Assembly (NCBI GenBank): GCA_013372975.1 | Contig: JABXIS010000004.1 | Location: 1 to 64,000, forward strand | Direction: 5' to 3' | DNA length: 64,000 bases | Origin: Alphaproteobacteria bacterium | GTDB taxonomy: Bacteria; Pseudomonadota; Alphaproteobacteria; Sphingomonadales; Kordiimonadaceae | Shown: positions 24,230 through 46,500 of the stretch, piece after piece | Layout of the letters: the number at the start of each line of letters is the position of its first letter | Position numbering within the stretch: the first letter of the stretch is position 1 | Notes under the pieces: generated by a model | The model's database searches: none | Told to the model about the DNA's origin: nothing | What the model saw: only the letters and a program-made list of their open reading frames with translations | Made by a program: the position numbers and the translations under genes

Positions 24230-24699
24230 CGGCGTTCAAACGCAAGGCGCTCATTCCATTCGGACAGGAGCGCGCTGATGCTGGTTACCGTGCTGCGGAG
24301 TGACGCATGATCTGCCTTTTGTTTTTCTGGCGTGTTTTGGCGCAGGAAATAGTCGATCATGGTCATCATGCGCTCGAGGTCACTGGCCTCGCTTTTATCG
24401 AACACGCCGGCTGCATGGCAATTGACCAGGCGCTTCACAAGGTCAAGTTCAAGCGTCCCTGACAGCACGATCACCAGCGCGTTCGGCTGCTGGCCTCGCA
24501 CTTCTTCAGCCAGCGCGGCGCCGCATTTTTCACCGGCAAAATCATTGTCGAGCACATAAATGTCATACCCGCTGCTGATGTCCGTTCTTTCACAAGAGCT
24601 GATCATCAGCTCTGGGAAACGTTGGCGCAGCTTAAGCGCCAGCATGCCTGAATAGTGTGGGTCATCATCAAGGATCAGAAGTTTACGCAGCGATCTCAT
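24226..24699 (-). CDS. Single-domain response regulator
   Basis: A 157-residue receiver-like protein. LLILDDDPHYSG carries the acidic pair, VLDNDFAGEKCG the phosphoacceptor region and LSGT..VFDKSE the Thr/Lys positions. No DNA-binding output domain is present; a helical tail of about 40 residues follows. Its start overlaps the end of the Wzc-like gene by 17 bases. It could tune the neighbouring co-polymerase or act in a relay with the adjacent REC-Hpt protein. Confidence 0.75.
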   Translation of the reverse strand: MRSLRKLLILDDDPHYSGMLALKLRQRFPELMISSCERTDISSGYDIYVLDNDFAGEKCGAALAEEVRGQQPNALVIVLSGTLELDLVKRLVNCHAAGVFDKSEASDLERMMTMIDYFLRQNTPEKQKADHASLRSTVTSISALLSEWNERLAFERR

Positions 24700-26752: not shown

Positions 26753-27622
26753 TTATCCCCGTGCCGTCCCGGCCTGACGGTTGCTTTTGTCCTGCTCCCA
26801 CCTTACCTGGCCGCGCAGCAGCGCATTTCTGATGTGCGCAAGAATTGCTACCAGGAAAAAGATGGCCGCACCGGGCCACAAGAGCGGCGAGCGCAAAAGT
26901 CGTCCAAGGAACTGGCCAGCCCGGTCCCGCCTGCTCCCGCCAGGCGAGAGGACCTGATCCTTTTTCAGGTCCTGATTACCGCGATAAACTCGGCTACGCA
27001 CCTTGATGAGACTTGCAAGCGACCGTGGCGCCGCGATTTTGTAGGGCGCAGCATCAACCCAGACACTGTTGCACAAAAGGCGACGGCGGACATATTCATC
27101 GTCATTGACTACAGGTGGAAGGCAGCCAAGCCGATCCAGCCCACGTCTGCTGACGGTAAAAAAGCCACCCATCTTTTGCTTGTCGAAATACGGATTCTGC
27201 TGCCAGGCCCGGTAGAATGCGGCCACCGCCCAACTGCACTGGCTGGTCTCAAAGCGGGCAGCCCCGTAGGCCATGTCGGCGCCCGACCAGTTCAGCCGGT
27301 GCACCAGCTGTCTGACAGCCGCTGCATCCGTTATGATATCGGCGTCCAGAAACACCACTGGGCTGGTCCGAGCGGCCGCGATTCCGGCATTGAGAGCAGC
27401 GGTTTTTGACGCCTGCTCAAGAACCAGAACGCGGGCGCTTGGTGCTGCGGCACGGGCGACGGCGGCTGTGTCGTCCATGCATCCGTTGCAAACCACGATC
27501 AAGTCGAACTCATCCGCCTGTGCTTCAGCCAGTAGGGCCTTGAGCGTGTGCCCTATGGTCGCTGCTTCATTGTAGGCTGGCACGATGATGGTGCAAACAA
27601 AGGGGTTCAGGGCATCAGGCAT
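26753..27622 (-). CDS. Family 2 glycosyltransferase
   Basis: A 289-residue GT-A enzyme. The nucleotide-binding strand is CTIIVPAYNEAATIGHTL; the metal-binding DxD site is FLDADI; VVNDDEYVRRRLL is an acceptor/catalytic acidic motif. A hydrophobic helix near the C-terminus (WPGAAIFFLVAILAHI) anchors it to the membrane. I chose the ATG at 27622, which overlaps the preceding gene by eight bases; an upstream in-frame extension lies wholly inside that gene. Sugar unknown. Confidence 0.88.
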   Translation of the reverse strand: MPDALNPFVCTIIVPAYNEAATIGHTLKALLAEAQADEFDLIVVCNGCMDDTAAVARAAAPSARVLVLEQASKTAALNAGIAAARTSPVVFLDADIITDAAAVRQLVHRLNWSGADMAYGAARFETSQCSWAVAAFYRAWQQNPYFDKQKMGGFFTVSRRGLDRLGCLPPVVNDDEYVRRRLLCNSVWVDAAPYKIAAPRSLASLIKVRSRVYRGNQDLKKDQVLSPGGSRRDRAGQFLGRLLRSPLLWPGAAIFFLVAILAHIRNALLRGQVRWEQDKSNRQAGTARG

Positions 27623-28115
27623 GACGGACCTCCCGTGGTTTGGTTTCAATGAAATCTGTGATGGCGCACAAAAGCTCGGGCGAGGCGACATTCTGAAGCC
27701 CCTCCCCGCCTTCAAGCGCATGCAAGCTGTCCAGCTTTTGAAAAAGCGACGCTTCATCCATCGCCACATAAATGCCGCGCCGATTGCGCAGGTTGGCGAC
27801 AGTTGCCAATTGGTGGTCGTTACGGTGTTCACCGTATCGGGCCAGCCGCGGCATCAGAATGATGGGCTTGCCGGCGCCAAGGGCCGTCAGAATGGTGCCC
27901 ATCCCAGCATGCGACACAACAATTTTGCATTTTGCAATGTTCTTTGCGAATTGCTGCGGCGTCAAAGTGGCCATCCATTCGATGTGGGATGGCACTTTCC
28001 CCTTCGGGCCAACCTGGGCAAACACTTGGCTAGATCTTTGAAAAGACTGCCATTTATCCAGAGATTCGATCAATCTGTCGAACGGTAGCTGGGTTCCTAC
28101 GGTGGCGAAGATCAT
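27615..28115 (-). CDS. ALG13-like glycosyltransferase subunit (sugar-nucleotide half)
   Basis: A 166-residue protein beginning MIFATVGTQLPFDRLIESL. It is the C-terminal GT-B half of a split UDP-sugar transferase; SHAGMGTILTALGAGKPIILMPRL is the donor-binding motif shared with MurG. It should pair with the ALG14-like membrane partner encoded just upstream. The ATG at 28115 is preceded by AAGGAG, but that site lies inside the 3' arm of a terminator-like hairpin, which predicts conditional expression. Confidence 0.9.
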   Translation of the reverse strand: MIFATVGTQLPFDRLIESLDKWQSFQRSSQVFAQVGPKGKVPSHIEWMATLTPQQFAKNIAKCKIVVSHAGMGTILTALGAGKPIILMPRLARYGEHRNDHQLATVANLRNRRGIYVAMDEASLFQKLDSLHALEGGEGLQNVASPELLCAITDFIETKPREVRHA

Positions 28116-28158
28116 AAAAAAACTCCTTCTTTGACAGTGTGTCTTGCCAAAGAAGGAG
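28116..28158 (-). promoter_or_regulatory. Terminator-like hairpin that hides the ribosome site of the ALG13-like gene
   Basis: On the minus strand CTCCTTCTTTG (28158-28148) pairs perfectly with CAAAGAAGGAG (28133-28123) around 14 bases, and is followed by seven T (28122-28116) and then the ATG. This has the full form of an intrinsic terminator. Its 3' arm contains the AAGGAG of the next gene, so it can act at both transcription and translation. Confidence 0.7.
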
Positions 28159-28189
28159 CAATGGGCGTGCCAGTATAGACAGGGGGCGA

Positions 28190-28654
28190 CTAGAGGACGC
28201 TCCCATGGTATTCTGCGCCAAATTTCTTGGATACATCCTGCCACTGGGTAAACACCTTGTCGGCGTGGCTCATGGCCAGCTTTGCGGACAAGGACATCTC
28301 CTCGGCGTTCGCGACACTGTCAACAAACAGGCTGCGGGCGCCAATCATTCGGCCGAACCGGCAGGCAAAATAGCCAGGTGCTGCGCCTGTGGACACAACC
28401 ACATGGGGCCTGACCCAAAGTGTGATCAGCAGCATCTTCAGCGCCATCAGAATGATCGCAAACTTGGTATCCCGGTTACCATCAGGCACAGTGAAAAAGC
28501 GTTGACCGGGCACGTCCCCACGGGAATCCGGGTTCACGGTGACATATGAAATTTCGCATTCTGCAAAGGCTGGACGCAACCTGAGAAGCTGGATCCAGTG
28601 CCCGCCGCCAGAGGCAACGGCTAGCACGCGTTGACGTTGTGTGTGGTTGGACAT
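28190..28654 (-). CDS. ALG14-like glycosyltransferase subunit (membrane partner)
   Basis: A 154-residue protein with the GT-B N-terminal motif LAVASGGGHWIQLLRLRP and a hydrophobic segment (FAIILMALKMLLITLWV). ALG14-type proteins bind the lipid-linked acceptor and recruit the ALG13-type subunit. The ATG at 28654 overlaps the end of the upstream glycosyltransferase by 34 bases. It is followed by the attenuator-like hairpin, so the two partner subunits may not be made in equal amounts. Confidence 0.88.
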   Translation of the reverse strand: MSNHTQRQRVLAVASGGGHWIQLLRLRPAFAECEISYVTVNPDSRGDVPGQRFFTVPDGNRDTKFAIILMALKMLLITLWVRPHVVVSTGAAPGYFACRFGRMIGARSLFVDSVANAEEMSLSAKLAMSHADKVFTQWQDVSKKFGAEYHGSVL

Positions 28655-29895
28655 GGCTCTGTTGTCTCCTTTCCATGAACGCGAGAAACGCAGATTTCTG
28701 CGTAGTAAGTAATCAGTCGGTCGATCTTCTGTGGCCAAAGGGCGATGGACTGCATGCGCTCCAGCGCACCCTCCCCCAGCCGGGCCCTCAGGGCAGGCAT
28801 TGCATGAAGTGTGCGAATTGCGGATGCGATATCAGCCGCAAACGCATCTGGGGAAGTAATGGGAACCTTGAAGCCGCAACTGTCGTCCACAACGTGGCCA
28901 GGGCCACCCCGGTCGGCGGCGATTACTGGCAAGCCAAAGCTCAGGGCTTCATATACTACGCTGCCGGACGGCTCGCGGAAGCTAGGGAAGCAGAAGACGT
29001 CTGCCTGACGGTACAGCGCATCCACCGCCGACCGGCTGATCTGGCCGTGGAAGGTGACTTTCCCAGTCAAGCCGAGCGCGTTCGCCATCTCACGGCAGTG
29101 CTGCATTTCCTCGCCCTTCCCGGCGACATCAAGGTGCACGCTGATATCTTTCAGATACGCCATGGCCCGGATTACATCCCTGAGGCCCTTTGTGCGCACA
29201 CCGCGCCCAACATGAAGTAACCGCAATGTGGGCCTTGGCTGCTGGAACGGAGAGTTGGGTGGCATCAGACGCTCGACGCCCAACTCGCTTTCGACCGCAA
29301 AACGGGGAAGATCAAGCGACGGAATCAGGTCTTTCACATAAGGCGCAACACCAAGAAGCATCGACGCCCGTCTGTAAGTATGGCGCAGCAGTGGATCAAA
29401 CCGAAGGCGCCAGTTATCAATATTGCGCAACCCCATATACCAGCGACCGCTTGCGCATTCCGCCTGGAACGCGGCGGGCGTATCCAGGCTACCGCCCTGG
29501 GGCCCAAGGACAAACGGGATATCAAAGGCTGCGAGCGGTGACGGGAAACGAAGCGCGATCGGCGCGAACTGATGCCCGATGTCAAATTCCTGGCCCGCGG
29601 CCAGAAGCGCTCGGATCTCCTTCTTCGCCCAGCGGTAGAATGCAGGGTAGGAGAGTTTGGCCATGGCGTTCAGGCGTTCATGGCGGCGGCACCAGGCAGG
29701 CTCGGCCATTGTCATCACCTTGACGCCCGGCAACTGGCCCTGAAGGGTTTTCCGACCCGGGCGCTCCATCGCCAAAAGGGTAACGTCAGCACGCAACGCT
29801 AGCTCCTCCACCCATTTCGCGGCGCACCAGGCTTCGCCCACGTCCGTCAGGTCGCAGTAGGGCGCAAGCGCCAGAACTTTTGGCCGCCAGGTCAT
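28621..29895 (-). CDS. Family 4 glycosyltransferase
   Basis: A 424-residue GT-B enzyme. The C-terminal donor domain shows LRLLHVGRGVRTKGLRDVIRA and the E-x7-E type motif FCFPSFREPSGSVVYEALSFG. The N-terminal acceptor domain begins VLALAPYCDLTDVGEAW. I chose the ATG at 29895, which overlaps the upstream gene as ATGA; the longer frame lies inside that gene. Sugar and linkage unknown. Confidence 0.9.
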   Translation of the reverse strand: MTWRPKVLALAPYCDLTDVGEAWCAAKWVEELALRADVTLLAMERPGRKTLQGQLPGVKVMTMAEPAWCRRHERLNAMAKLSYPAFYRWAKKEIRALLAAGQEFDIGHQFAPIALRFPSPLAAFDIPFVLGPQGGSLDTPAAFQAECASGRWYMGLRNIDNWRLRFDPLLRHTYRRASMLLGVAPYVKDLIPSLDLPRFAVESELGVERLMPPNSPFQQPRPTLRLLHVGRGVRTKGLRDVIRAMAYLKDISVHLDVAGKGEEMQHCREMANALGLTGKVTFHGQISRSAVDALYRQADVFCFPSFREPSGSVVYEALSFGLPVIAADRGGPGHVVDDSCGFKVPITSPDAFAADIASAIRTLHAMPALRARLGEGALERMQSIALWPQKIDRLITYYAEICVSRVHGKETTEPCPTTHNVNAC

Positions 29896-30836: not shown

Positions 30837-32134
30837 GCGGGTCGCCTCACATAGTTTGGGGTTGCTGCCTTTGGCTTCGCCCGTGCGCCACCTGTTGCAA
30901 GGTGCGGGCGCACAAGCGCCATACCGCAGCCAATGAAGAAGAAGAATTGCACCATCAGCGCATTCCAGAAATGCACGGTAAGCCCGGCCAGTGCGTAGCC
31001 GACAAAGGCCACAAGCCAGGATTTGATGGCGTTTTTACAGAAGCGGCTGGAGCCCGTATTGGCGCGCAGCTTCATCAGAATGAGGATGATGGCGCTGATA
31101 AGGAACAGGAACGCCGGCACGCCGTAGCGCACGGTTGTCAGCAGCCAGTAATTATCCATGCTGTCGCTCATCCAGGGCGCGCGGATCCAGTCATTCAGGC
31201 CGATGCCAAAGATCGGATGACGCCCTACCTCGGCAGTGCCATAATCCCAAATATGCACCCGGTTGTAGGCGCTGTTGGCGCTGAATGTCAGATAGGAAAT
31301 GAAAATCAGCACAGGCGACCGGTTCGACAGCAAGGAAAGTGCCACCCAGATCATGAAGAACAGGCCGATGAGCATATACCAGCGCCCTTCAATGCCCCAG
31401 GTAAGCCGGTCCCAGGCAATCAACCCGATCTGGAGCGCAAGCGCAGTGAAGGGCCCACCCGAGAGGGAAAAGAAAGTGGCACCCGCCACAACCCCAAGCA
31501 TCTTGATGGACTTTTTGTCCACCCTGCCACCGCCGAGGACGAAATAGGTGCCACCAAAGCCTGCGGCCGCGAATACACCATACAGGATCGGGTGCTCGAA
31601 CGACGTGAATGCGCGCGTCAGGCCAAGGCGGGGTTCAATATAGTGCGGGCCGGGCCCGCCCAGCAGGGCCTTGAAGGTGTTCCGCAAGAGATGGACACCT
31701 GTGAAAGACTCCATCACTGCAAACAGCAGAAGCGAGGCCGTAATCGCGAATACCAGCTTCAGCACCTTGGCGTAATCTTCCGGTGTGCGCACATAGGCCC
31801 GCGCCATCAGGTAAGCGCCGAATGTCTCGAACACATAAATGCCCGCGGTCTCAACGCCTTCGGCGATGCCCATGGTGACAAAAAGCGCAAGGGCTGCCCA
31901 AAGCGAATGGGCAAACATGAGATAGTCCGGCAGGCAAAGCGGATTGTCCCTCATGGACAGAAGCTTCATCAGGGCCGGGAAAAACATGCCAATCAGCACA
32001 AGGCGGTAGGGCGACATGCGGATCGACCCAAGCGAAACGGACGTTTCCGGCGGCAAGGTAAAGCAGATCAGCAGCGCGGCAACCGAAGCCACCGGCCAGA
32101 CGCTGTCCCGCGCATTTGTTGCCGCCTTTGCCAT
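30827..32134 (-). CDS. O-antigen ligase/polymerase family membrane protein (Wzy-like)
   Basis: A 435-residue protein with about eleven hydrophobic helices. A periplasmic loop with NRVHIWDYGTAEVGRHPIFGIGLNDW carries the family's Arg and the HPIFGIG motif of the Wzy_C domain. It likely polymerises lipid-linked repeat units flipped by the Wzx-like protein. The ATG shares one base with the upstream stop (TGATG). The Lys/Arg-rich tail is cytoplasmic. Confidence 0.88.
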   Translation of the reverse strand: MAKAATNARDSVWPVASVAALLICFTLPPETSVSLGSIRMSPYRLVLIGMFFPALMKLLSMRDNPLCLPDYLMFAHSLWAALALFVTMGIAEGVETAGIYVFETFGAYLMARAYVRTPEDYAKVLKLVFAITASLLLFAVMESFTGVHLLRNTFKALLGGPGPHYIEPRLGLTRAFTSFEHPILYGVFAAAGFGGTYFVLGGGRVDKKSIKMLGVVAGATFFSLSGGPFTALALQIGLIAWDRLTWGIEGRWYMLIGLFFMIWVALSLLSNRSPVLIFISYLTFSANSAYNRVHIWDYGTAEVGRHPIFGIGLNDWIRAPWMSDSMDNYWLLTTVRYGVPAFLFLISAIILILMKLRANTGSSRFCKNAIKSWLVAFVGYALAGLTVHFWNALMVQFFFFIGCGMALVRPHLATGGARAKPKAATPNYVRRPAWT

Positions 32135-33390
32135 CAGCCACGCTGCTCCTCTGCCCACAAGATTTCTTTGGGCTCATGCAGCTTCCGGCTTCTGACCCGC
32201 TTGAAGGTGCCCGCTACCGATTGGACCTTTGCCTTTACCGGCAGCTTCTTCCAACAGGCGAAACTGTCGTCGGCGGTCGCAGGTGCATTCAGCCCAGCGA
32301 CCTTGAGCGCCACACTGCGGCCCCAGACAGCACCTTTTGTGGTGAACAGATTTGGCTGTGCATCAAACAGGATTGCAGGATCTTTCTTTTCCAGGAACAG
32401 ATAGCCGCTATCGGCAATGGCCTTCAGGAAGGCTCGCCCCCGTTCGGTGCGCACAACAATCAGCGACTTGCCGACGGCGTCCTTTTCGGGCGGGGTCTGC
32501 CACGGGTCCCCAACCGATATATCCGCGTGCTCGCCGGTGTGATCAGCACAAACCTGACAACGCCACTGCCGGTGCTTCTGCAGGACATTGCCCCAGCCAT
32601 CATTGTAGCTGATTGCAACCCGTTGCGGCCCATCAAGCGTGCGCCAGGTGGCACGCATGTCGCCCGGCCAGCCCTCACCGCGATAGTCGAGGGACGCCAG
32701 CACACCCGGTTGGTCCGGCGCCAGATGTTCCAGAAGCTCTTCAGTGCCTTTATGGCTTGGTACCCCTGCGCAAAAAATTGAAATGGTCAGGCCCATCCGT
32801 GCCGCAAGCTCAGGCACATGCCCTGCCACCATGTTGGCGCCAGCAATATCGCACGGCTTGCCAATCACCACGGAAGGTTTGTCCGCATCGGCCACAAGAC
32901 GAAGCTTGTCCCCAATGCTGGCAGGTGCGTATCGAGAGCCCGCACCTTCCATCAGCTCAGCCCGGCATTTGCTGATGGCTGCCTCATTCAGGGTCGGGTT
33001 ATCTTTGCGGGCCTTCACATGAAGCGCGCCGTGGAAGCCCATCTTTTCAATAGCAAAGAGCGCAAGCGCGGTAACTGCACCACCGCTTGATCCCTTGTGC
33101 CGGATGTCATAGGCGCCAGCATAGCCTTCCCACACATCAAGAACCGGCCCCCAACTGCTTTCGTGAAGATCTTTCGCCTCCCCCGCTGAGGCTGGAAAAG
33201 CCCCTGTACAGGCCTTGGCGATGCTTTCTTCCACATCAGCGTCTAGCGCACCGATTTTCCGAGGTCGCCAGTTTTCGTCCGCCGTTTCCGCCATCTCGAT
33301 AGCGGCAGGTGCGAAGGCCGCACAGGCACCGCAGCCGGTACAAAGCCTGTTCTTGAGAATATCATCGATAGACTTGATCTTGCGGGTCAT
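32134..33390 (-). CDS. FrhB-like iron-sulfur flavoprotein of polysaccharide clusters
   Basis: A 418-residue protein of the coenzyme F420 hydrogenase beta-subunit family. The N-terminal cluster motif is CTGCGACAAFAP, where the usual fourth Cys is replaced by Ala. A second motif is RCQVCADHTGEHADISVGD. Such proteins often accompany polysaccharide pyruvyl transferases, and this operon has one. The ATG at 33390 follows AGGAG and overlaps the Wzx-like gene (ATGA). Exact reaction unknown; a redox sugar modification is inferred. Confidence 0.85.
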   Translation of the reverse strand: MTRKIKSIDDILKNRLCTGCGACAAFAPAAIEMAETADENWRPRKIGALDADVEESIAKACTGAFPASAGEAKDLHESSWGPVLDVWEGYAGAYDIRHKGSSGGAVTALALFAIEKMGFHGALHVKARKDNPTLNEAAISKCRAELMEGAGSRYAPASIGDKLRLVADADKPSVVIGKPCDIAGANMVAGHVPELAARMGLTISIFCAGVPSHKGTEELLEHLAPDQPGVLASLDYRGEGWPGDMRATWRTLDGPQRVAISYNDGWGNVLQKHRQWRCQVCADHTGEHADISVGDPWQTPPEKDAVGKSLIVVRTERGRAFLKAIADSGYLFLEKKDPAILFDAQPNLFTTKGAVWGRSVALKVAGLNAPATADDSFACWKKLPVKAKVQSVAGTFKRVRSRKLHEPKEILWAEEQRG

Positions 33391-34637
33391 GAAAGTTGCT
33401 CCTGTGTTTTCAGTTTGTGGCAAACGGGCGCCCTGCGGGTGCGGAGGGAATAGAGCATCGCTTGTGTTATCCAGGCGGCAGCTTCACCAGCGCAGGCTAC
33501 GAAAAGAAGAAGTTGAAGTGAGCCGCCGAAAGGCAACAGTGCCACCGCAACAAGCACAGCACTAACCCGCACGAGGTTGGCCTTAAAGGGAATATCTGTG
33601 TGACCGAGCGCCTGGGCGGCTACGGATTGAGGAGTCCGGCACAAACGGATAGCTTGAGCCAGCGCAACCAGCATCACAAGACCGGTTTCAGCCTCAAACG
33701 GTGCACCGAACAAGGTAACCAATGTTGGATTCGCCATCAGCACGAAGCCAATACAGAAAAGTGCAGAAACGCCATGAGTGGCAACACTGAGCTTTTCCAA
33801 TCGTTCCTCAAACGCCTCGGCAGAGTTTTTGCTGTTGGCAAGCAAAGGCAATCCGGTGGTCAGAGCAATCCGCGCCACCACCAACACTGGCACCAATGCC
33901 AGTTGGAACAACATGGAAAAATGTGCAAAATCCTCTGCATCCAAAATTGCAGACAGTATGACCCGTTCGCCCTGCATACTCCAGAACATGGTCACGCCAC
34001 TCAGCATCAATGGCCATCCAAAACCCAGCATCTTGCCTAGCTGCTGCTTGTTGAAATTTGCCTCGTATGGCGCATCTGACAGTATGTGCGACAAGGCAGT
34101 GTGCATGCCAGATTGTAGCAACAACACCGAACACACCACTTCCAGCACTGGCGCCATTGTTGCTGCCACATACAAAGCGATCGTGGCCAGCACAGTGGTA
34201 CTGGCTTCAACATATAAAGCGGGACGGAAATTCAGTGTCCGCTGCTTCAGGCGATACCCCTGGTGGGTAAAACCTCTTAAAAGGGCGCTGCCGGCAAGAA
34301 GCAGGTAACAAGAAAACGATATTCCGTTGGCCTCAAATGCGCCGAGTCCGATCAAGCAAGCAGCGAGAAAAACTCCACGCCCACAAACAACGAGGTGCGC
34401 ACTTGCAAGTGCCGTACGGACCTCATGCCTTTTTACCCAAAGTATGTAGCGCTCAGTGGCTAGGTCTGTGGACATGGCCAAGAGCCGAATGGACAAAATG
34501 AGAAATATGAATTCGCCAAGCGATTCCGCGCCCATGAGACGTGCGATGATTACGTTACGAAGGAATACGCATATCTCCCGCATCACTTGATTTGTTGCCA
34601 CAGAACCAAGCTGGCTTATGCGTTCACTGCTAGGCAT
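33387..34637 (-). CDS. Lipid-linked oligosaccharide flippase (Wzx-like)
   Basis: A 416-residue membrane protein with about twelve helices and no soluble domains. The opening (ISQLGSVATNQVMREICVFLRNVIIARLMGAESLGEF) fits the MOP/Wzx superfamily. It should flip undecaprenyl-linked repeat units to the periplasm for the Wzy-like polymerase. Its start overlaps the end of the pyruvyl transferase gene by eight bases. Confidence 0.87.
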   Translation of the reverse strand: MPSSERISQLGSVATNQVMREICVFLRNVIIARLMGAESLGEFIFLILSIRLLAMSTDLATERYILWVKRHEVRTALASAHLVVCGRGVFLAACLIGLGAFEANGISFSCYLLLAGSALLRGFTHQGYRLKQRTLNFRPALYVEASTTVLATIALYVAATMAPVLEVVCSVLLLQSGMHTALSHILSDAPYEANFNKQQLGKMLGFGWPLMLSGVTMFWSMQGERVILSAILDAEDFAHFSMLFQLALVPVLVVARIALTTGLPLLANSKNSAEAFEERLEKLSVATHGVSALFCIGFVLMANPTLVTLFGAPFEAETGLVMLVALAQAIRLCRTPQSVAAQALGHTDIPFKANLVRVSAVLVAVALLPFGGSLQLLLFVACAGEAAAWITQAMLYSLRTRRAPVCHKLKTQEQLS

Positions 34638-36118: not shown

Positions 36119-36167
36119 CTGCTCTTCATGTGCGCCTACAGGCTGCCATACTCTTAGGAGCGAACAG

Positions 36168-37892
36168 ATGCCCAATGAAACAGTCACCTATAATGTTAGT
36201 GAAGCAGACTGGTCTCCCAGCGTGTGGGACGCATCCATTAGGGACGCTCCTGCCTGGGAAGGCGCACAAAGGCTTATTGCGGCAACCGCCCTCGTGTTCC
36301 TGACGCCGCTTTTCCTGCTCCTTTATATGGCCGTGAAGCTGACGTCCAAGGGCCCTTTCCTGTTTCGGCAGGAACGCCCAGGCAAGGACGGTCGACCGTT
36401 CACCGCACTCAAGGTTCGGACCATGCGCATCGGCGCCGACAGGGACAAGTCACGGGCACGCAAGGTAGACTTGGCGGATCCCATGATTACCCCGATCGGA
36501 CGCATCCTGCGGGATTTGAAACTGGACGAACTGCCCCAACTGGTAAATGTCCTGCGCGGCGAAATGGCTATTGTCGGGCCCCGCCCAATCGCCACTTCCC
36601 TCCAGCGCGAGCTTGAAGGCAAAATTCCCGGCTTCGCCCGCAGGCTCAGCGTCAAACCCGGGCTCACGAGCCTTGGGCAGGTCTGCCTGATGGATAACGC
36701 AGATGACGTTGTGGCCGACTGGTCTATGCGGTTCGACGCGGAACTTGACTATCTCTATCGCAGGAACTGGAAATACGACCTGGTGATCATTGCCATGACC
36801 GTCCTGTTCCTTGGCCGCAAGATGGCAGCGAAACTGCTGTCGGGCAAAAAGCTGATCATGATTGCCTTCCTTCTCGGCTGCGTGGCAACCACCGGCTGCA
36901 GCGAGCGCCTGTCCACCGCCCCTTTCACCAAAGCAGACGGCGCCTATGAGAAGGCTATCCCGGCTTTCGGCGACCGCGCCGCACCAAGCGTCCCCACGAT
37001 TGAACCCATATCGATTCCCGTGGAAGAGGACACCTTCCAGGACCCGGAATACCGTGTTGGCACAGGGGATCTGATTGCGGTCAATGTGTTTGGCGAAGAA
37101 GGCCTCAGTGACCTGAAGGTCAGCGTGGACGGCGCGGGCTATGTCCAGCTGCCATACCTTGAGCGGGTGAAGGTTGCCGGAAAGACCACCGCAGACATTC
37201 AGGCAGAACTAAAGAGCGGCTTCAATGTCCAGTTCCGCAATCCCTGGGTGGTGGTGGAAGTGATAGAGTATCGCAGCAGGCCCATCTACCTTCTGGGCGA
37301 GTTCAACAAGCCCGGCGTTGTTTATCTGGATGGCCCAACCAACCTGATGCAGGCCATCACCATGGGAAGCGGGCTATCGGGGGCGGCACACCTGCGCGGT
37401 GCCCGCCTCTGGCGCAATGATGCCATCGCCGCAGTTGATCTCCACGCCTTGCTGATGGAAGGTCGCGCTGCCCACAACGTGGGCCTTCAACCCGGCGATA
37501 CGATTTTCGTGCCAAGCCAGGCTGACAAGAAAGCCTATGTGCTGGGCGCTGTTGCCCGGGCTGGTACGGTGCAATTCTCCAACGAACCCATGACCCTCCT
37601 GAAAGCCCTCAGTCAGGTTGGCGGGCCGATCAAGGAAGCCGCCCTTCTGTCCCAGGTTCGGGTTATTCGCACCCTGTCGCCCGTCGATGGCCAACTGATT
37701 CTCGTGAATGCCAACGATATCCTCAAGGGCAAGGCCGCAGACCTGACGCTGATACCAGATGACATCGTCTATGTGCCCAACAACATGATTGAGAACTGGA
37801 ACCAGGTGGTTCGCGCCATCACCCCAAGCCTGCAGCTTGCGGGTGGCGTGCTACAGCCGGTTGTTCAGGTCAAGTTCCTGAAAGGAAATTAA
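36168..37892 (+). CDS. Sugar-phosphate transferase fused to a Wza-like export protein
   Basis: A 574-residue protein in one frame. Residues 35-215 are a bacterial sugar transferase of the WcaJ type: one membrane helix (37-58), FRQERPGKDGRPF, LRDLKLDELPQL, MAIVGPRP and VKPGLTSLGQV. It should load the first sugar phosphate on undecaprenyl phosphate. Residues 219-244 have the form of a lipoprotein signal (basic SGKK, hydrophobic LIMIAFLLG, then C238 and C244 in ATTGC). Residues about 285-574 are a polysaccharide export domain with SLBB repeats (YRVGTGDLIAVNVFG, YLLGEFNKPG, YVLGAVARAG). These two functions are normally separate proteins in different membranes. Met219 (36822) could be an internal start, but has no ribosome site. 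The ATG at 36168 follows TAGGAG. Confidence 0.85.
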   Translation: MPNETVTYNVSEADWSPSVWDASIRDAPAWEGAQRLIAATALVFLTPLFLLLYMAVKLTSKGPFLFRQERPGKDGRPFTALKVRTMRIGADRDKSRARKVDLADPMITPIGRILRDLKLDELPQLVNVLRGEMAIVGPRPIATSLQRELEGKIPGFARRLSVKPGLTSLGQVCLMDNADDVVADWSMRFDAELDYLYRRNWKYDLVIIAMTVLFLGRKMAAKLLSGKKLIMIAFLLGCVATTGCSERLSTAPFTKADGAYEKAIPAFGDRAAPSVPTIEPISIPVEEDTFQDPEYRVGTGDLIAVNVFGEEGLSDLKVSVDGAGYVQLPYLERVKVAGKTTADIQAELKSGFNVQFRNPWVVVEVIEYRSRPIYLLGEFNKPGVVYLDGPTNLMQAITMGSGLSGAAHLRGARLWRNDAIAAVDLHALLMEGRAAHNVGLQPGDTIFVPSQADKKAYVLGAVARAGTVQFSNEPMTLLKALSQVGGPIKEAALLSQVRVIRTLSPVDGQLILVNANDILKGKAADLTLIPDDIVYVPNNMIENWNQVVRAITPSLQLAGGVLQPVVQVKFLKGN

Positions 37893-37894
37893 GG

Positions 37895-38755
37895 ATGCGT
37901 ATTCACCACTATGTGCTGACTGCTACGATGTTGGCCTGTGCAGCAACCGGGTTTGAGGCCCGCGCAGGTACCGTGTCACCCATCCAGTCTGATGCAACGC
38001 CCCTTGGCCTGTCACCTCTCGCCGATGTGCAGCTTGCCGGGTCGGATGGCGAAGCGATGGATTTCTACAAAAATGACCTGCCGGATTTGCAGACAACGGT
38101 AAACACCACACTCAACGAAACACAGGCCGTTGAAAACCTGTCCTCCCTAGCGCTTGACCCCAACGACCTGTATTTGACAGAGGCGTCCGATGTGCGCGTC
38201 TATTTCATTGGTGAAGGCGCAGGATACAGGAACACCTTGGGCATCTACACTGGCGACAGCAGCGAAGCCCTTACGGGCGATGCCGGCCTGATTTTTCCAG
38301 ATGCCAGCACTTCGAATTCCTATCTAAGCCCAGCGACAGATGACACCCGAACTGAAAGCGCCCCATTGGCGTCAGGTGACTTTGTCGACCTTGGCACCTT
38401 CGAGGCGGGGACGCAGCTCAATCTGTTCCTGATAGCCAATGGTGCCAACGGCGGCAGCAACACTTACTATACAGACAGCGCCCTGAACGCCGATGGGATT
38501 GAACATTTCGTCGTGCTGGCCACTGCCGACAGCCCATATCTGTTGATCGGCGTGGAGGACCTCTATGGCGGGGGCGACCAGGACTATAACGACGTTGTAA
38601 TTGCCCTAGACATTGGCAAAACAAATGTGAAGCAACTGATATCCAAGGTCGTGCCTATACCGGGCTATCTGGCTCTGCTACTGGGGCCGATAGGCTTATG
38701 GTTCGCACGCCGCCGAAACAATACCCCCAACAGCCGGGAGTGCCAGTCATGTTAG
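37895..38755 (+). CDS. Secreted DUF4114-type protein with exosortase sorting tail
   Basis: A 286-residue protein with a Sec signal peptide (to about Ala24) and a beta-rich body. DQDYNDVVIALDIG near 228-241 is the acidic, possibly calcium-binding motif of DUF4114 proteins. The end has a tripartite sorting signal: VPIPGY (253-258), a hydrophobic helix (259-271) and RRR (272-274). A 12-residue tail with two Cys follows. This departs from the standard PEP motif by Ile in place of Glu. It is the likely substrate of the exosortase encoded next, whose start it overlaps by seven bases. Confidence 0.82.
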   Translation: MRIHHYVLTATMLACAATGFEARAGTVSPIQSDATPLGLSPLADVQLAGSDGEAMDFYKNDLPDLQTTVNTTLNETQAVENLSSLALDPNDLYLTEASDVRVYFIGEGAGYRNTLGIYTGDSSEALTGDAGLIFPDASTSNSYLSPATDDTRTESAPLASGDFVDLGTFEAGTQLNLFLIANGANGGSNTYYTDSALNADGIEHFVVLATADSPYLLIGVEDLYGGGDQDYNDVVIALDIGKTNVKQLISKVVPIPGYLALLLGPIGLWFARRRNNTPNSRECQSC

Positions 38756-40116
38756 CGGCGCTTCCGCGGCAGGACATCATGCGCCAAGCGGCCCTGGTGG
38801 CGGCGCCGCTCGGGCTGATGATCATGCTCCAGTCCTATCTTGGTGGATCGGACGAGGAAGCCATCGCACTTGCGATCGTTGCCCTCATCAGCGCTTTCCT
38901 TGTCTTGCCTCGATCCCATCCGAGAACCCGGGCGTCCACCCTTCTCCCCGTGTTCGCGCTTGCGTCAGCTGCGGCGTTTGGCATTGGATTATCCGTTGGT
39001 CCGGCCAAGCTTGTTCCCCTGTCGGGCATGCTTTTGTTCGGCGGTGCCACGATGCAGCTGCTGCACCTGCCACTTCGCCACGCGCTGCCCTTCCTGACGT
39101 GCCTGCTGTTCGCAGTGCCCTTGCCTGCTGCCTTTGAAGGGCAGTTGGGCCTTGCTCTGGCCGATGTGGAAGCCACGGCATTCGTTGGCGTTGCGCAAAC
39201 CCTGGGCATTGCTGTCTATCAATTCGGAACACAGATAGTGCTGGGGGAAACCGCCGCCACGATCAATAGCGATTGCAGTGGCACCCTGCTGCTTTGGCCT
39301 GCCATTTTGGGGGCCATGGTGGCCCGCAGTGCTACAAGCGCCTCTCTGTGGCGATCATTCACCATCATTGTCAGCTCGGTGTTCCTCGCGCTTACCCTGA
39401 ATCTCGTCCGTCTGGCCATCCTGTTGCCGCTCAACTTCTATGCCGCCGACAGCCTGGCCGGCGGCATGCATGACTTCCTTGGCTGGATTATCATGCCACT
39501 GGCCTGGTTGCTGCCGGTGCTCATATGGGGAGCGTCAGCGAAACTCGCTCTAAAAGTACCATCCATCACGGTGTTCGAAGCCACCCTGGCTGCAATAATC
39601 CTGATCACCGCTGGATTTCTATCCTTATGGCTGCCGAAGGACACGCCTTCCATTCGCCCTCCAGACCTGCCCTTCTATGTCGCGGGCTGGACTGGCGAAC
39701 CGGGCAGCATCCCCCTTGAGGAGGCGCAAATACTTGGCGCCCACCATGCGGAACGTCGGCTGTATCGGTCGCCTACAGGCAGGCGGGAACTGGTCATAAC
39801 CTTCATGCAGCATGAAAGTGCGAAGAAGGCCAACGAACATACAAGCAAGGCCTGCTATGAGGCCATCGGCTGGCAGGTTCGGGAGCTTCAGACCCTTGCG
39901 TCCGGCAGCGGCGCGGAAATCCGGCACCTGCTGGTCCGCAGTTTCGACCAACGCCAGGCCATCACGGAAATCGTCCTGCCGCCCCTGACGCCAGACCATC
40001 AAGGAGCCACGCGGCTGCAGATTGTAGAAGACCCGACGGTCCCGGTGACCGAGCGTCACGCCACGGCCATGGCCTTTGCTGGCGCCTTTGGCCTGGAACT
40101 GGGAGGCAGTGAATGA
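38749..40116 (+). CDS. Exosortase fused to an EpsI-type domain
   Basis: A 455-residue inner-membrane protein. Residues 1-295 form about eight or nine helices with the exosortase triad: Cys176 (INSDCSGTL), Arg221 (LNLVRLAIL) and His241 (GGMHDFLGW). Residues 300-455 are an EpsI (DUF3485) domain outside the membrane (PFYVAGWTG, VITFMQHE, KACYEAIGWQV). Exosortases cut the sorting tail of substrates and pass them to the envelope or polysaccharide. I chose the ATG at 38749, preceded by GGGAG. The next gene overlaps by ATGA. Confidence 0.9.
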   Translation: MLAALPRQDIMRQAALVAAPLGLMIMLQSYLGGSDEEAIALAIVALISAFLVLPRSHPRTRASTLLPVFALASAAAFGIGLSVGPAKLVPLSGMLLFGGATMQLLHLPLRHALPFLTCLLFAVPLPAAFEGQLGLALADVEATAFVGVAQTLGIAVYQFGTQIVLGETAATINSDCSGTLLLWPAILGAMVARSATSASLWRSFTIIVSSVFLALTLNLVRLAILLPLNFYAADSLAGGMHDFLGWIIMPLAWLLPVLIWGASAKLALKVPSITVFEATLAAIILITAGFLSLWLPKDTPSIRPPDLPFYVAGWTGEPGSIPLEEAQILGAHHAERRLYRSPTGRRELVITFMQHESAKKANEHTSKACYEAIGWQVRELQTLASGSGAEIRHLLVRSFDQRQAITEIVLPPLTPDHQGATRLQIVEDPTVPVTERHATAMAFAGAFGLELGGSE

Positions 40117-42115: not shown

Positions 42116-43531
42116 TCAGGCGACCGGTTCTTTTTCCCAGGTTTCTTTCTTGCGGTAGATGGTGGAGGGGCTGACGCCAAGCGAGGCCGCTGCTTTCGGG
42201 ATGCTGCCATCAAAAGCCGCGATCCGGTCCTCGATGGTCTGTCGTTCGATATCAGCCAGCGTACACATAGAAGGAATTGCAGTGTGGGCAGCGACGGGTG
42301 TGCGAACCATCTCACCGCCCCCGGAATGCGTAGCCGCACCCCCGCTTTTCGGCAGAATACTACCCTGCAGGGGCGGAAACATGTCTTCTGTTACTGTCTC
42401 GCCGTCCTGGAGGACGGCGATGTTGCGGATGGTGTTTTGCAGTTCACGCACATTGCCCGGCCAGTTGTGCGACAGCATCAATGCCTGTGCGCCGGCATCG
42501 AATTCGGTGAAGGCCTTGCCTTCCTCGCGAGCGAATTTCTTGAGGAAATATCTTGCCACTTCAAGTACATCGCGTTCGCGGCGGGCAAGGGGCGGTAACG
42601 CGATCGGTACCACATTGAGGCGGAAATAAAGATCTTCCCTGAACCGGCCTGCGCGCACTTCTTCCAGCGGATCACGATTGGTTGCGCAGATCACGCGCAC
42701 ATCAACTTTTTCGGGCTTTGCCGCGCCTACCGGATGCACTGTGCTGGTCTGCAGGAACCGCAGTAGTTTCTTCTGCAATGCAAGATCCAGCTCGCACATT
42801 TCATCGAGGAACAGGGTGCCGCCTTCCGCTTCGCGCGCAGCGCCCTTTCGGTCCGCGATCGCACCGGTGAAGGAGCCTTTCAGGTGGCCAAACAGTTCAG
42901 ATTCCAGCAAGTCATGCGGGATCGCAGCACAGTTGACGGGCACGAATGGCATGTTGGCCCGCGGCCCCGCCTTGTGGATCGCCTCAGCACATAATTCCTT
43001 TCCGGTGCCGGATTGCCCTGTCACGAATACGGTTGCCTTGGATGACGCCACGTTTTCGATCATGCGGTAGACACGCTGCATCGCGACAGAGCTGCCGACA
43101 AAATCATGGAAGCCGCCTTGTTTCTCGTGCCTCAGCGTATCCACCTGCGCCCGCAGGGTAACCCGCTCCAGCGTGTTATTGACTGTCGTCACCAGCCGAC
43201 TTTCGGGGAACGGCTTTACCAGATAGTCCAGCGCCCCCAGCTTCATCGCACGCACAGCGTTATTGAGAGACGCGTCAGCCGTGATAACGATGGCCGGCGT
43301 TTCCATCCCGGTGCCCTGAATTTCTTCCAGGAAACCAAGGCCGTCTCCATCCGGCAGATTGAGGTCCAGAAGCAGGAGATCGACCCCCTCAGCGGAAAGG
43401 TGCGCCCGCGCAGCGGTCAGGTCCTCACAGGTGGTGACACGGAAGCCCGCGACCTGAAGTTGCTTTTCGTACAGCATGGCCATCGTCAGCGTGTCTTCGA
43501 TGATCAGTATGTGTTTTTCGCGAGCGCTCAT
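42116..43531 (-). CDS. prsR: PrsR-type sigma-54 response regulator
   Basis: A 471-residue activator. Residues 1-120 are a receiver with phosphoacceptor Asp56 (LLLLDLNLPDGDG) and Lys in VKPFP. The AAA+ domain has Walker A GQSGTGKE, a GSFTGA loop that contacts RpoN (Ser for Ala) and GGTLFLDEM. A Fis-type helix-turn-helix ends the chain (AAASLGVSPSTIYRKK). PrsR regulates exosortase/PEP-CTERM genes with RpoN in other bacteria. It overlaps the kinase gene as ATGA. Likely targets are the three sigma-54 promoters in this window. Confidence 0.9.
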   Translation of the reverse strand: MSAREKHILIIEDTLTMAMLYEKQLQVAGFRVTTCEDLTAARAHLSAEGVDLLLLDLNLPDGDGLGFLEEIQGTGMETPAIVITADASLNNAVRAMKLGALDYLVKPFPESRLVTTVNNTLERVTLRAQVDTLRHEKQGGFHDFVGSSVAMQRVYRMIENVASSKATVFVTGQSGTGKELCAEAIHKAGPRANMPFVPVNCAAIPHDLLESELFGHLKGSFTGAIADRKGAAREAEGGTLFLDEMCELDLALQKKLLRFLQTSTVHPVGAAKPEKVDVRVICATNRDPLEEVRAGRFREDLYFRLNVVPIALPPLARRERDVLEVARYFLKKFAREEGKAFTEFDAGAQALMLSHNWPGNVRELQNTIRNIAVLQDGETVTEDMFPPLQGSILPKSGGAATHSGGGEMVRTPVAAHTAIPSMCTLADIERQTIEDRIAAFDGSIPKAAASLGVSPSTIYRKKETWEKEPVA

Positions 43532-45789
43532 GTGCGGTCTCCGTGCTTCAGTGCATAGTCTTGTAGAATATCGATTCCTTCAGGCAGCTCTGCTGCAATC
43601 AGGCGGCAGTATTGACCGCAGCTATCCGCGTCGCCTTCCTGCCAGCTGTTGTTTGCCTCATTGGCCATATGTTGGACACGGGTCAGGCCGAAGGTGCCGC
43701 TGACACTCTTGATCCGGTGTGCGGCTTCCGCCGCCTGCTGAACAGCGCCTGTTTCAAGACTGGCCGTTAGCGTATCCAGATTGGACCTGAGATCTGCCAT
43801 GCACTGCCCCAACAACATGGCGCAGCTGTCCCGATCAAGGGATGCCATCAGCTCATCCAGAACGGCAGCATCGAAGGCAACAATTTCACCAAATTCCGCG
43901 TTTTCTGACATCTCTTCTTTTTCCCCCACCTGCGGTTCATGAGCGGTCACCGCGCGTTCCACGACAGTATAAAGGTCTTCCCGGTTGAACGGCTTTGTTA
44001 CGATGCCACACATGCCAGCAGCTGCAAACTCCTCCCTGTCTTCGTCCATGCCGTGGGCCGTAAGAGCGTAGATAGGCGGCGCATTTTCAGGCCCAAGCAC
44101 TTGAAGAATGCGGGCCGTCGCAGCCGTGCCGTCCATTTCCGGCATGGCGATGTCCATGAAGATAAGGTCGTAGGAATGGTTGGTCGCGGCTTCGACTGCC
44201 TCGACCCCATTATTGACGATTGTGACCCGGCAGCCGAAAGCTTCAAGGGACATACGGATCAGCATCTGGTTGGTTGGCACATCCTCAGCGACCAGAATGC
44301 GCGGCATGCGGCCAAAACGGTCCTTGAAGTTACGGCGATCTTTTTTGGGTTCTTTAGCTGACACGTCACACACATGAACTTCATCAAACGGAGCTTCAAA
44401 CCAGAAGGCCGCCCCAATTCCGGGCGCAGAGGTTACCCCCACACGGCCTTCCATCAGCGTCGCCAGCTGTTTGCAAATTGCCAGACCGAGGCCAGCGCCC
44501 TCACCAATCTTGCGCTTGTTGGCGCCAACACGGGTGAACTGGGTAAACAGTTGCTCGCTGTCGCTTTGCTTAAGGCCCGGGCCAAAATCACAGACTGACC
44601 AGCGCAGGGCACCTTCATTGCGCGCCTGCACCTTGATGACATACCGGTTGGACGGCGCGTATTTGATCGCATTTGAGATATAGTTGTTCATGATCTGGCG
44701 TATACGAGCTGGATCCCCCCAATAGTGCGCCCCAACCCCTTCCTGAATGTCCACATCCAGGCTACTGCCTCGGGCTGCAACGTGAGGCTGCCAGAAGCTC
44801 CTGATCGACGTAATGAGATCAGAAATCGAAAACACCGTGGGCTCCAGGTGCAAGGTGCCGGCTTCTGTCCTTGCGAAATCAATGACATCGTTCAGAAGCG
44901 TTTGCAGTGTCTGTCCGCTGGTCCACGCCATGGAAACAAGCTTCCTGGCTTCCTCAGGCAAGGCTTCATCCTGCAGCAGGTCAAGGCTGCCCAGTATACC
45001 ACTCAGCGGTGTTCGGATTTCATGGCTGATGGTGGCCACGAAACGGCTTTTCAGAGCACTTGTTTCCTCAGCTTTCTCTTTCGCCGCAACCAGTTCTTCT
45101 TTCAACTCGGTCAACTCCTTAACGCGTTTCTCCAGGTCCTTTGTCCGTTGCTCGGCCTCTTGCCTCGCCTGTATCTGGGCGATCTTCGCAGCCGCGTAGG
45201 CCGCAACTGTCTTGAGGATATCAAGGTCAGATGAGGTGAATTTGTTGAGTTCCGGTGATTCACTATCAATCACGCCGATCAATCGATCATTGTGGATCAT
45301 CGGCACACAGATTTCCGATGCGTTAGTGCCAACATCCGCGATATAGCGCGGGTCCTTCGACACATCGGCCACAATTTCAGCTTTCTTCGACGCTGCCACC
45401 GACCCTGTAATGCCTTTTCCTAGTGGAATCTCCAGAGCGTTGATGATCTCATCGTCATTTGTATTTTTCTCTGCAATGGCGGCCCGCTGGACGATGCAGC
45501 CCTTTGCTTCGTCATACAGATAGATCACACAATCAACAAACCCAAGCCTCCCCACCACTTCGCGCGCCGTGTACCACACAAGGTCATGCTCCGACGTGAT
45601 GCTGGTGATGGCCGAGGCAAACCCGCTCAGCACCGAGAGGAACTTCATATTTTCCCGGTAGGCTGCATCAAGCTGGCCACGCGACCGGTACAGCTCCCGG
45701 CTTTTCGCTTCCAGAAGATGTTCGGCTTCTTCCCGTGCCTGCCGCTCGCGTCCATACTTGCGGCGGAAGATGTCCTCAGCTTCAACCAT
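43528..45789 (-). CDS. Soluble hybrid histidine kinase: GAF-HisKA-HATPase-REC-Hpt
   Basis: A 753-residue protein with no membrane segment. Residues 1-45 are coiled coil; about 50-207 a GAF domain; 208-245 coiled coil; the phospho-His is His256 (ATISHEIRTPLSG). The ATPase domain follows, then a receiver (ILVAEDVPTNQ, Asp in LIFMDIAMPEMDG) and an Hpt domain near the end (AAHRIKSVSGTFGL). The ATG at 45789 overlaps the H-NOX gene by eight bases. Kinases coupled to H-NOX are inhibited or activated by NO-bound H-NOX. It likely feeds the PrsR protein downstream. Confidence 0.92.
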   Translation of the reverse strand: MVEAEDIFRRKYGRERQAREEAEHLLEAKSRELYRSRGQLDAAYRENMKFLSVLSGFASAITSITSEHDLVWYTAREVVGRLGFVDCVIYLYDEAKGCIVQRAAIAEKNTNDDEIINALEIPLGKGITGSVAASKKAEIVADVSKDPRYIADVGTNASEICVPMIHNDRLIGVIDSESPELNKFTSSDLDILKTVAAYAAAKIAQIQARQEAEQRTKDLEKRVKELTELKEELVAAKEKAEETSALKSRFVATISHEIRTPLSGILGSLDLLQDEALPEEARKLVSMAWTSGQTLQTLLNDVIDFARTEAGTLHLEPTVFSISDLITSIRSFWQPHVAARGSSLDVDIQEGVGAHYWGDPARIRQIMNNYISNAIKYAPSNRYVIKVQARNEGALRWSVCDFGPGLKQSDSEQLFTQFTRVGANKRKIGEGAGLGLAICKQLATLMEGRVGVTSAPGIGAAFWFEAPFDEVHVCDVSAKEPKKDRRNFKDRFGRMPRILVAEDVPTNQMLIRMSLEAFGCRVTIVNNGVEAVEAATNHSYDLIFMDIAMPEMDGTAATARILQVLGPENAPPIYALTAHGMDEDREEFAAAGMCGIVTKPFNREDLYTVVERAVTAHEPQVGEKEEMSENAEFGEIVAFDAAVLDELMASLDRDSCAMLLGQCMADLRSNLDTLTASLETGAVQQAAEAAHRIKSVSGTFGLTRVQHMANEANNSWQEGDADSCGQYCRLIAAELPEGIDILQDYALKHGDRT

Positions 45790-46324
45790 CACGCTGCTTC
45801 TTGAGGATGAAATGCATGCCGCCCGGCACAGCCTTCTCTTCCATGATCCGGTGGGCATCCCCGAAATGATCTAGGCAGGCGTCCGTCAGCCCGCGCGCAA
45901 CGGCAGCCAGCGGCCTGTGGGAGATATATTCAAGCACCAGGTCACCACCGTCCCCGGCGATCAACAACACCTGAGGCGGCTTGGCATCCGGATACAGCTT
46001 CTTGACCTCTTCGTGGATATGCCGGCCCAGCTTTTCCAACAATGCGACACCGCTATCGATGCCCGCGAAATATTCAGGGAACATTGTCTCAAACCGGCCG
46101 AACAGGTGATAGCCATAGTCGCGTGCCAGAACCGCGGCGTCGGCTTTCATTTCTTTGCAGATAGCGCCGTGCAGCAGCGCAAATTCATCAAAGGAGTAGT
46201 TGCCCACGCTGGTATAGGCGGCTGTGATCCGCCCATCCAGGCCCTGGATGACGTCCTCAAGCGCGTGACTGCCCAGACGTTCTTCAACAAAATCCAGATA
46301 CTCTGTAAACAGCAAACCCCGCAT
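45782..46324 (-). CDS. H-NOX haem nitric-oxide/oxygen-binding sensor
   Basis: A 180-residue stand-alone H-NOX domain starting MRGLLFTEYLDFVEERLG. The haem propionate motif Y-x-S-x-R is Tyr133-Ser135-Arg137 (YISHR). The proximal ligand is probably His104 in HIHEEVKKLYP. Length and motifs are standard. No distal Tyr is obvious, so it may prefer NO, but I cannot settle this. I chose the ATG at 46324, with GGAGAAG eight bases upstream; a longer in-frame start would lie before the predicted transcription start. It is the first gene of an H-NOX/kinase/PrsR operon. Confidence 0.93.
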   Translation of the reverse strand: MRGLLFTEYLDFVEERLGSHALEDVIQGLDGRITAAYTSVGNYSFDEFALLHGAICKEMKADAAVLARDYGYHLFGRFETMFPEYFAGIDSGVALLEKLGRHIHEEVKKLYPDAKPPQVLLIAGDGGDLVLEYISHRPLAAVARGLTDACLDHFGDAHRIMEEKAVPGGMHFILKKQRDG

Positions 46325-46337
46325 CGGCGCTTCTCCA

Positions 46338-46500
46338 ATTTTGCAAATGGCTTGTTGCCATTCTGCAAAAGCTACGCAACCTGCGTGCCAACGTGAGTTC
46401 GTGGTTTTCCCTGCCAAAATGGCATGACCTCACGCCTGAGATCGTTAAGTCTTCGCATTTTGCAATTGCAATCCGCATCAATATTCGCGTTTTGCAAAAC
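46338..46500 (-). promoter_or_regulatory. TTTTGCA elements upstream of the H-NOX operon
   Basis: ATTTTGCAATTGCAAT (46457-46472) and the perfect palindrome GTTTTGCAAAAC (46489-46500) lie 67-110 bases upstream of the sigma-54 promoter. AATTTTGCAAAT (near 46338-46348) lies in the leader. They match the cluster at 35969-36038. This suggests autoregulation by PrsR. Confidence 0.62.
46375..46390 (-). promoter_or_regulatory. Sigma-54 promoter for the H-NOX/kinase/PrsR operon
   Basis: The minus strand reads TGGCACGCAGGTTGCG, matching TGGCACG-N4-TTGC with GG-N10-GC spacing. Transcription would start near 46364, 40 bases before the H-NOX ATG. It is the best consensus match of the three in the window. 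Confidence 0.85.

Follow-up and report, generated by a model that had tools for sequence, protein, structure and literature searches.

The window, that is, the whole 64,000-nucleotide stretch of DNA analyzed here, carries a polysaccharide locus in which a single open frame on the forward strand (36168 to 37892) encodes a chain of 574 residues and closes with a TAA stop. A Shine-Dalgarno-like AGGAG (36156 to 36160) stands 7 bases 5′ of its ATG at 36168; this and all features of the gene given below are on the + strand. The initial annotation had claimed that one in-frame chain, uninterrupted by a stop, joins an initiating transferase to a Wza-like protein, and this was borne out by the reading of the frame, by Pfam and by the related genomes. 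The Pfam families Bac_transf, Poly_export, and SLBB_2 all matched the chain above their curated cut-offs.

The monotopic PGT domain spans residues 36 to 213 (36273 to 36806) and was matched by PF02397 with an E value of 1.4e-47 and 162 bits against a cut-off of 27, with positions 7 to 175 of the 179 in the profile covered. Its Asp120-Glu121 pair was invariant in the alignment of all 12 full-length fusions; an Asp-Glu dyad is described as catalytic in monotopic PGTs in the accessible part of PMC10942596. Residues 1 to 231 also matched WbaP chains (E 7.7e-22) and PglC-type chains (4e-17) by sequence. The N-terminal half is a relative of the monotopic PGTs and a predicted sugar-phosphate transferase. 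PF02397 had three matches in the window's genome, and in a more distant genome with the fusion (G764, see below) the fusion was its sole match.

From Cys244 onward, the chain matched the solved Wza structure 2j58 in phmmer (E 1.2e-31), and residues 244 to 574 (36897 to 37889) would constitute a mature Wza-like export lipoprotein. This part contains a Poly_export domain at residues 292 to 365 (37041 to 37262; PF02563, E 5.8e-18), followed by two stretches matched by SLBB_2, the best of which covers residues 454 to 536 (37527 to 37775; PF22461, E 1.3e-25). OPX proteins are defined, in the accessible part of PMC9603273, by Poly_export and SLBB domains, and the fusion has the required order of Poly_export followed by at least one SLBB (PF02563 and two SLBB_2 stretches). 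The match to 2j58 ended at position 344 of the 359 in that chain, and Wza_C (PF18412) had no match in the fusion at E 0.001, where it should be noted that the C-terminus is poorly modeled. An AlphaFold2 model built from alignment A1 had a mean pLDDT of 55.8 and a pTM of 0.37, again with a poor C-terminus, and this was too low for fold searches.

The fusion is closely followed by a DUF4114 protein with a VPIPG...RRR tail, which by eye is PEP-CTERM-like, and then by an exosortase-EpsI protein (together 37895 to 40116). The latter passed only the general TIGR04178 signature and was assigned no named exosortase type, so that it is possibly of an unnamed type. Also adjoining the locus, at 42116 to 46417, are a LuxO-like sigma-54 regulator, a hybrid GAF kinase with Hpt and a haem-NO-binding (HNOB) protein, neighbors that suggest nitric-oxide control of the polysaccharide locus. 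On the other side of the fusion, a protein of the F420-hydrogenase beta-subunit family (FrhB) is encoded within the polysaccharide cluster at 32134 to 33423, as it is in several relatives, and at 27618 to 28738 an Alg14-like frame overlaps a GT28 C-terminal frame, the pair looking like a two-part Alg13/Alg14-type glycosyltransferase. Two further proteins in the window were observed, namely a 688-residue protein adjoining glycosyltransferases (24686 to 26749), for which there was no Pfam match at E 0.001, and a 1155-residue protein (53281 to 56748) in which an S9 peptidase match spans 456 to 663 only, with no Pfam match shown elsewhere.

Distribution of the fusion

We compared 59 genomes, made up of the window's own and 58 from a search of the same genus or family. 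The fusion was intact in 10 of them: its own, 6 of 18 from the same genus, and 3 of 10 from the same family, the relatives' copies being 57 to 68% identical to that of the window. The initial annotation had named as refuting outcomes a stop or frameshift between the domains and relatives that always have two genes. Neither was found, as the joint was free of stops and frameshifts in all 13 copies available and intact fusions recurred in 9 of the 58 relatives and in two more distant loci. One of these is in G764, an alphaproteobacterium from outside the order (48% identity). The other, L036, was drawn from at least 80 loci and belongs to G975, a metagenome-assembled genome labeled Xanthomonadales (45% identity). 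Among the matches listed for the family, the remainder were at most 47% identical and contained a PGT or an OPX alone, except for one stretch in G014, and a two-gene version of the fusion was therefore not seen in the family. The G014 match (183 to 407, with two stops) was considered as a split ancestor and rejected, since the stretch (L128) holds only an unfused OPX of 37% identity.

In one genome of the same genus, G008, the fusion is split by a frameshift within the PGT domain, away from the joint, with the two pieces overlapping in different frames at approximately residues 163 to 171. This genome is 76% complete and in 360 contigs, and its pyruvyl transferase gene, on the contig that carries the fusion, is likewise broken in two; the split is therefore probably an assembly error. 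We kept the G008 pieces separate in the analyses and did not mend them.

Wider surveys were made with profile A1 at an E value of 1e-60 or better, in genome samples that overlap and, for the phylum and class, with at most three candidates scored per genome. The profile matched 11 of 196 genomes in the order sample (10 fused and 1 split), 2 of 385 in the class sample (the window's own and G764), and 3 of 398 in the phylum sample (the window's own, G012, and G502, the last of these unfused). Around G502, 3 of 101 genomes were matched, all with an unfused OPX, and the samples around G764 (142 genomes) and G975 (200 genomes) yielded only G764 and G975 themselves. Since the samples overlap and the candidates per genome were limited, the fusion can be called rare for the sampled genomes only.

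The neighborhood was compared in eight stretches from the same genus or family (L129 to L136). Genes for the DUF4114 protein, the exosortase-EpsI protein and a TPR protein were found 3′ of the fusion in all eight, and a divergent pyruvyl transferase gene was found upstream in seven; in the eighth, the contig ends. The L036 locus has genes for pyruvyl transferase, flippase, FrhB-like, Wzy-like, GT2, GT4, HNOB, kinase, and LuxO-like proteins; in the 21.6 kb of this locus, none of the DUF4114, exosortase, and TPR proteins was matched. The G764 locus has DUF4114, exosortase, Wzy-like, GT2, and GT4 genes, and its 19.9 kb gave no match for pyruvyl transferase, flippase, FrhB-like, or TPR proteins.

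Unfused relatives of the two halves

In G502, G950, and G970, the OPX relative is encoded by a separate gene and has an N-terminal lipoprotein signal, the Cys of which aligned to Cys244 of the fusion. The same polysaccharide genes adjoin the unfused OPX gene in G502 and G950, and a PGT of a different branch is encoded about 13 kb away; the 15 kb read for G970 contained no match to any further gene of the locus. Conversely, two unfused PGTs, in L037 and L038, fell in a clade with the fused PGTs (support 100/99). Both end soon after the position where the joint starts and, by eye, are without a hydrophobic segment. Judging from these boundaries on either side, a complete PGT and a complete lipoprotein precursor are joined in the fusion. 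In L038 (1594 to 2693 and 5193 to 6806), the unfused PGT follows a frame resembling a response-regulator receiver, and the contig also carries a DUF4114-like frame, both by eye.

Separate PGT and OPX genes, adjacent and in this order, occur on plasmids of Rhizobium, Ensifer, Burkholderia, and Cupriavidus. On the Cupriavidus plasmid (L161, 1755 to 3681), the frames of the PGT and of a lipoprotein-type OPX overlap by 20 bases in different frames, which is one slip short of a fusion. Neighboring PGT-then-OPX genes of this kind are a plausible starting point for the fusion. Apparent fusions on Rhizobium and Ensifer plasmids, among the best 25 of 122 tblastn records, turned out to be separate neighboring genes (L157, L158, L159, L162, and L163). 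The same was true of the records with more than 80% query coverage, which are gene pairs by frames (H1) or by annotation (H2). The frame-by-frame plasmid reading left out H7, a record from the strain that also gave H6.

Trees were then used to compare the fused and unfused rows, with matches of fewer than 155 aligned residues and the G008 fragment excluded from the PGT tree. The fused rows needed two changes in the OPX tree, in which long branches meet, and three in the PGT tree. In both trees, a single fused clade stayed within what the AU test allows (p-AU 0.23 and 0.218). One or several origins of the fusion are both compatible with these trees.

The joint and Cys244

The joint starts with a basic stretch at residues 217 to 228 (36816 to 36851), which is basic in the relatives too and is predicted to be cytoplasmic. 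A hydrophobic stretch at residues 229 to 243 (36852 to 36896; best 15-residue hydropathy 2.21 in the window copy) comes next and is predicted to be the N-in membrane segment of a lipoprotein signal. It is followed by Cys244 (36897 to 36899), which on the grounds of its conservation we propose as the lipidation site, with the LspA cut placed immediately before it. According to the accessible part of PMC8689077, a lipoprotein signal consists of a positively charged segment, a hydrophobic helix, and a lipobox whose Cys is invariant, after which there is usually a disordered tether. The positive stretch, the hydrophobic helix, and the subsequent Cys are all present in the joint, with the difference that the signal (residues 217 to 244) lies behind the PGT domain and not at the N-terminus of the chain, as it does in usual lipoproteins. 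The initial annotation had viewed the joint as an intact lipoprotein signal with two candidate cysteines. The basic residues, the hydrophobic core, and Cys244 held up in the comparison, but Cys238 was not conserved and falls in a short insertion peculiar to the window copy.

Conservation was assessed in the 12 full-length fusions, with the G008 fragment added where 13 copies are given. The OPX parts had mean pairwise identities of 0.58 and 0.67 and the PGT domain one of 0.63, against 0.45 for the linker (residues 245 to 290) and 0.28 for the joint (residues 219 to 243), where not a single column was invariant. Cys244, in contrast, was invariant in all 12 and was also present in the G008 fragment. 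All 13 copies had Ala or Gly at position −1, and 11 had Leu at −3, the exceptions being the window copy with Thr and L036 with Met. A PROSITE-like lipoprotein pattern picked this Cys in 12 of the 13 copies, missing G019 (Pro at −4), as well as in all three unfused OPX relatives. The strict lipobox [LV][ASTVI][GAS]C, in the form given in PMC8689077, was present in 8 of the 13 fused copies, while the window copy (TTG-C) and four others missed it. Three polytopic proteins encoded in the locus, compared with 9 to 10 orthologues each, served as a control: across their 24 hydrophobic segments, no column within a segment or directly behind it was an invariant Cys. At position +2, Asp is the signal for inner-membrane retention in E. 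coli; in the 13 copies, this position was Ser (10, the window copy included), Gly (2), or Leu (1), and never Asp. Both LspA and Lgt are encoded in the window's genome.

Discussion

The observations are best explained if the fusion is a natural precursor of two proteins, which we consider likely. The PGT would fold on the cytoplasmic face and the basic stretch (217 to 228) would remain cytoplasmic, while residues 229 to 243 would span the inner membrane with the N-terminal side inside and the OPX part would be translocated. Lgt would then add diacylglycerol to Cys244, and LspA would cut before it. The released OPX, with Ser at +2, would proceed to the outer membrane and act there in export as a Wza-like lipoprotein, and the PGT would be retained in the inner membrane, with the former signal peptide as its new C-terminal anchor. 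One chain would in this way probably give rise to two proteins in two compartments and, being made from one message, the parts that begin and end the pathway would be produced 1:1. We place the cut before Cys244 because the features kept are those read by Lgt and LspA, and because both enzymes are encoded in the genome. The interpretation given in the initial annotation is thus partly supported; against it, the strict lipobox is missed by 5 of the 13 copies, that of the window among them.

The initial annotation had also raised the alternative of an uncut chain. In this case, the joint would serve as a lasting transmembrane helix, whether or not Cys244 carries a lipid, and would link the PGT to the OPX ring as a single object across the envelope. 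The uninterrupted frame in 12 of 12 full-length copies is in line with this, and the approximately 47 residues between Cys244 and the Poly_export match, modeled at very low confidence, mean that length alone would be no bar to such an arrangement. However, a mere tether needs no invariant Cys preceded by Ala or Gly where nothing else is kept, and the same Cys is the lipobox Cys of the separate OPX relatives. We therefore regard the uncut chain as unlikely. With Cys244 and the small residue at −1 retained in an otherwise drifting joint, the comparison speaks more for a cut by signal peptidase II than for a lasting tether across the membrane.

The weak lipobox of the window copy and the five copies without the strict form could also be accommodated if the chain were cut by signal peptidase I or another protease, or if the hydrophobic stretch alone served as the signal and Cys244 had another role. 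This is very unlikely, given that the conserved Cys and the Leu at −3 in 11 of 13 copies are what Lgt and LspA read, according to the accessible part of PMC8689077. It is also highly improbable that the export protein is made, additionally or mainly, from an internal start codon, so that the two proteins would be synthesized separately. In the window, in-frame ATGs at 36822 and 36858 would indeed give a normal-looking lipoprotein signal, but start codons in the joint are scattered between the copies with none conserved, and the near-identical G012 and G016 are without ATG, GTG, or TTG in the joint. Furthermore, none of five Shine-Dalgarno-like 4-mers was found upstream of an in-frame ATG, GTG, or TTG in the joint of the 13 copies. 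Finally, although the window's genome is a 96-contig draft, the chance that an assembly or sequencing error joined two genes is close to nil, an artifact or frame error being ruled out by the same open fusion in independent genomes, that is, in nine other relatives, of which G012 and G025 are single-contig genomes, and in G764 and L036.

Returning to the two-protein precursor, a more far-reaching and, in our view, rather doubtful proposal is that lipoprotein maturation is the splitting step of a natural bacterial polyprotein. Through cleavage by Lgt and LspA, the component that opens a polysaccharide pathway and the one that closes it would be obtained in equal amounts, and the spent signal peptide would become a permanent membrane anchor for the PGT. 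The uncut precursor would, in addition, briefly hold both ends, so that a PGT may sit beside each export ring as it is made.

Fusions of PGTs are already a known class. In the accessible part of PMC10942596, PGTs with an added functional domain make up the Bi-PGT class of the monoPGT superfamily, and small PGTs are described as carrying sugar-modifying and regulatory domains in that of PMC12802240. The fusion resembles the Bi-PGTs in having a functional domain fused to one end of a monotopic PGT catalytic domain, but differs from them, as they are described in the accessible part of PMC10942596, in that the partner is a periplasmic or outer-membrane export protein, placed across the membrane from the PGT and behind a lipoprotein signal. 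The classification of OPX proteins by domain content makes no mention of a PGT partner in the accessible part of PMC9603273. Among the matches listed from the open-access literature, no description of a PGT-OPX fusion, or of LspA acting on an internal signal, was recognized by title or start of abstract, nor was LspA acting on a signal behind a 200-residue cytoplasmic domain recognized by title. The OPX partner of the PGT is accordingly without a description found in the open-access literature searched.

Like Wza-type OPX lipoproteins, with which it is homologous, the OPX half has Poly_export followed by SLBB and a lipoprotein-type signal; unlike them, it has this signal internally, behind a 216-residue enzyme, and lacks a Wza_C match at E 0.001. 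The plasmid-borne neighbor genes match the fusion in their two functions and in having PGT ahead of OPX, but are two genes and not one chain. There is also a likeness to XrtA/PEP-CTERM systems, in that an exosortase and a PrsT-like TPR protein adjoin the fusion and that its halves matched both EpsB_2 and pepcterm_export, albeit below cut-off (133.1 of 393.35 bits for EpsB_2, and 96.6 bits against 180 for the XrtA export family TIGR03027); the fusion differs from these systems in being one protein. A processing parallel is provided by Bradyrhizobium FbcH, a cytochrome b/c1 precursor that is cut by signal peptidase I at an internal signal into two envelope proteins. As in FbcH, a single bacterial precursor with an internal signal would give two envelope proteins, the cut being proposed in our case, whereas the proteins are unrelated and the peptidase we propose is LspA and not signal peptidase I.

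Signal peptides are usually N-terminal and end up discarded. In the fusion, a complete lipoprotein signal has instead been kept inside the chain, with a cytoplasmic enzyme ahead of it and an envelope export protein behind it, despite great sequence divergence. If the chain is cut as proposed, it would be a natural case of LspA acting as a polyprotein protease, and the fusion would offer a simple means of fixing the ratio of the first to the last part of a polysaccharide pathway. It would also be a genetic link indicating that PGT and OPX work on one and the same polymer.
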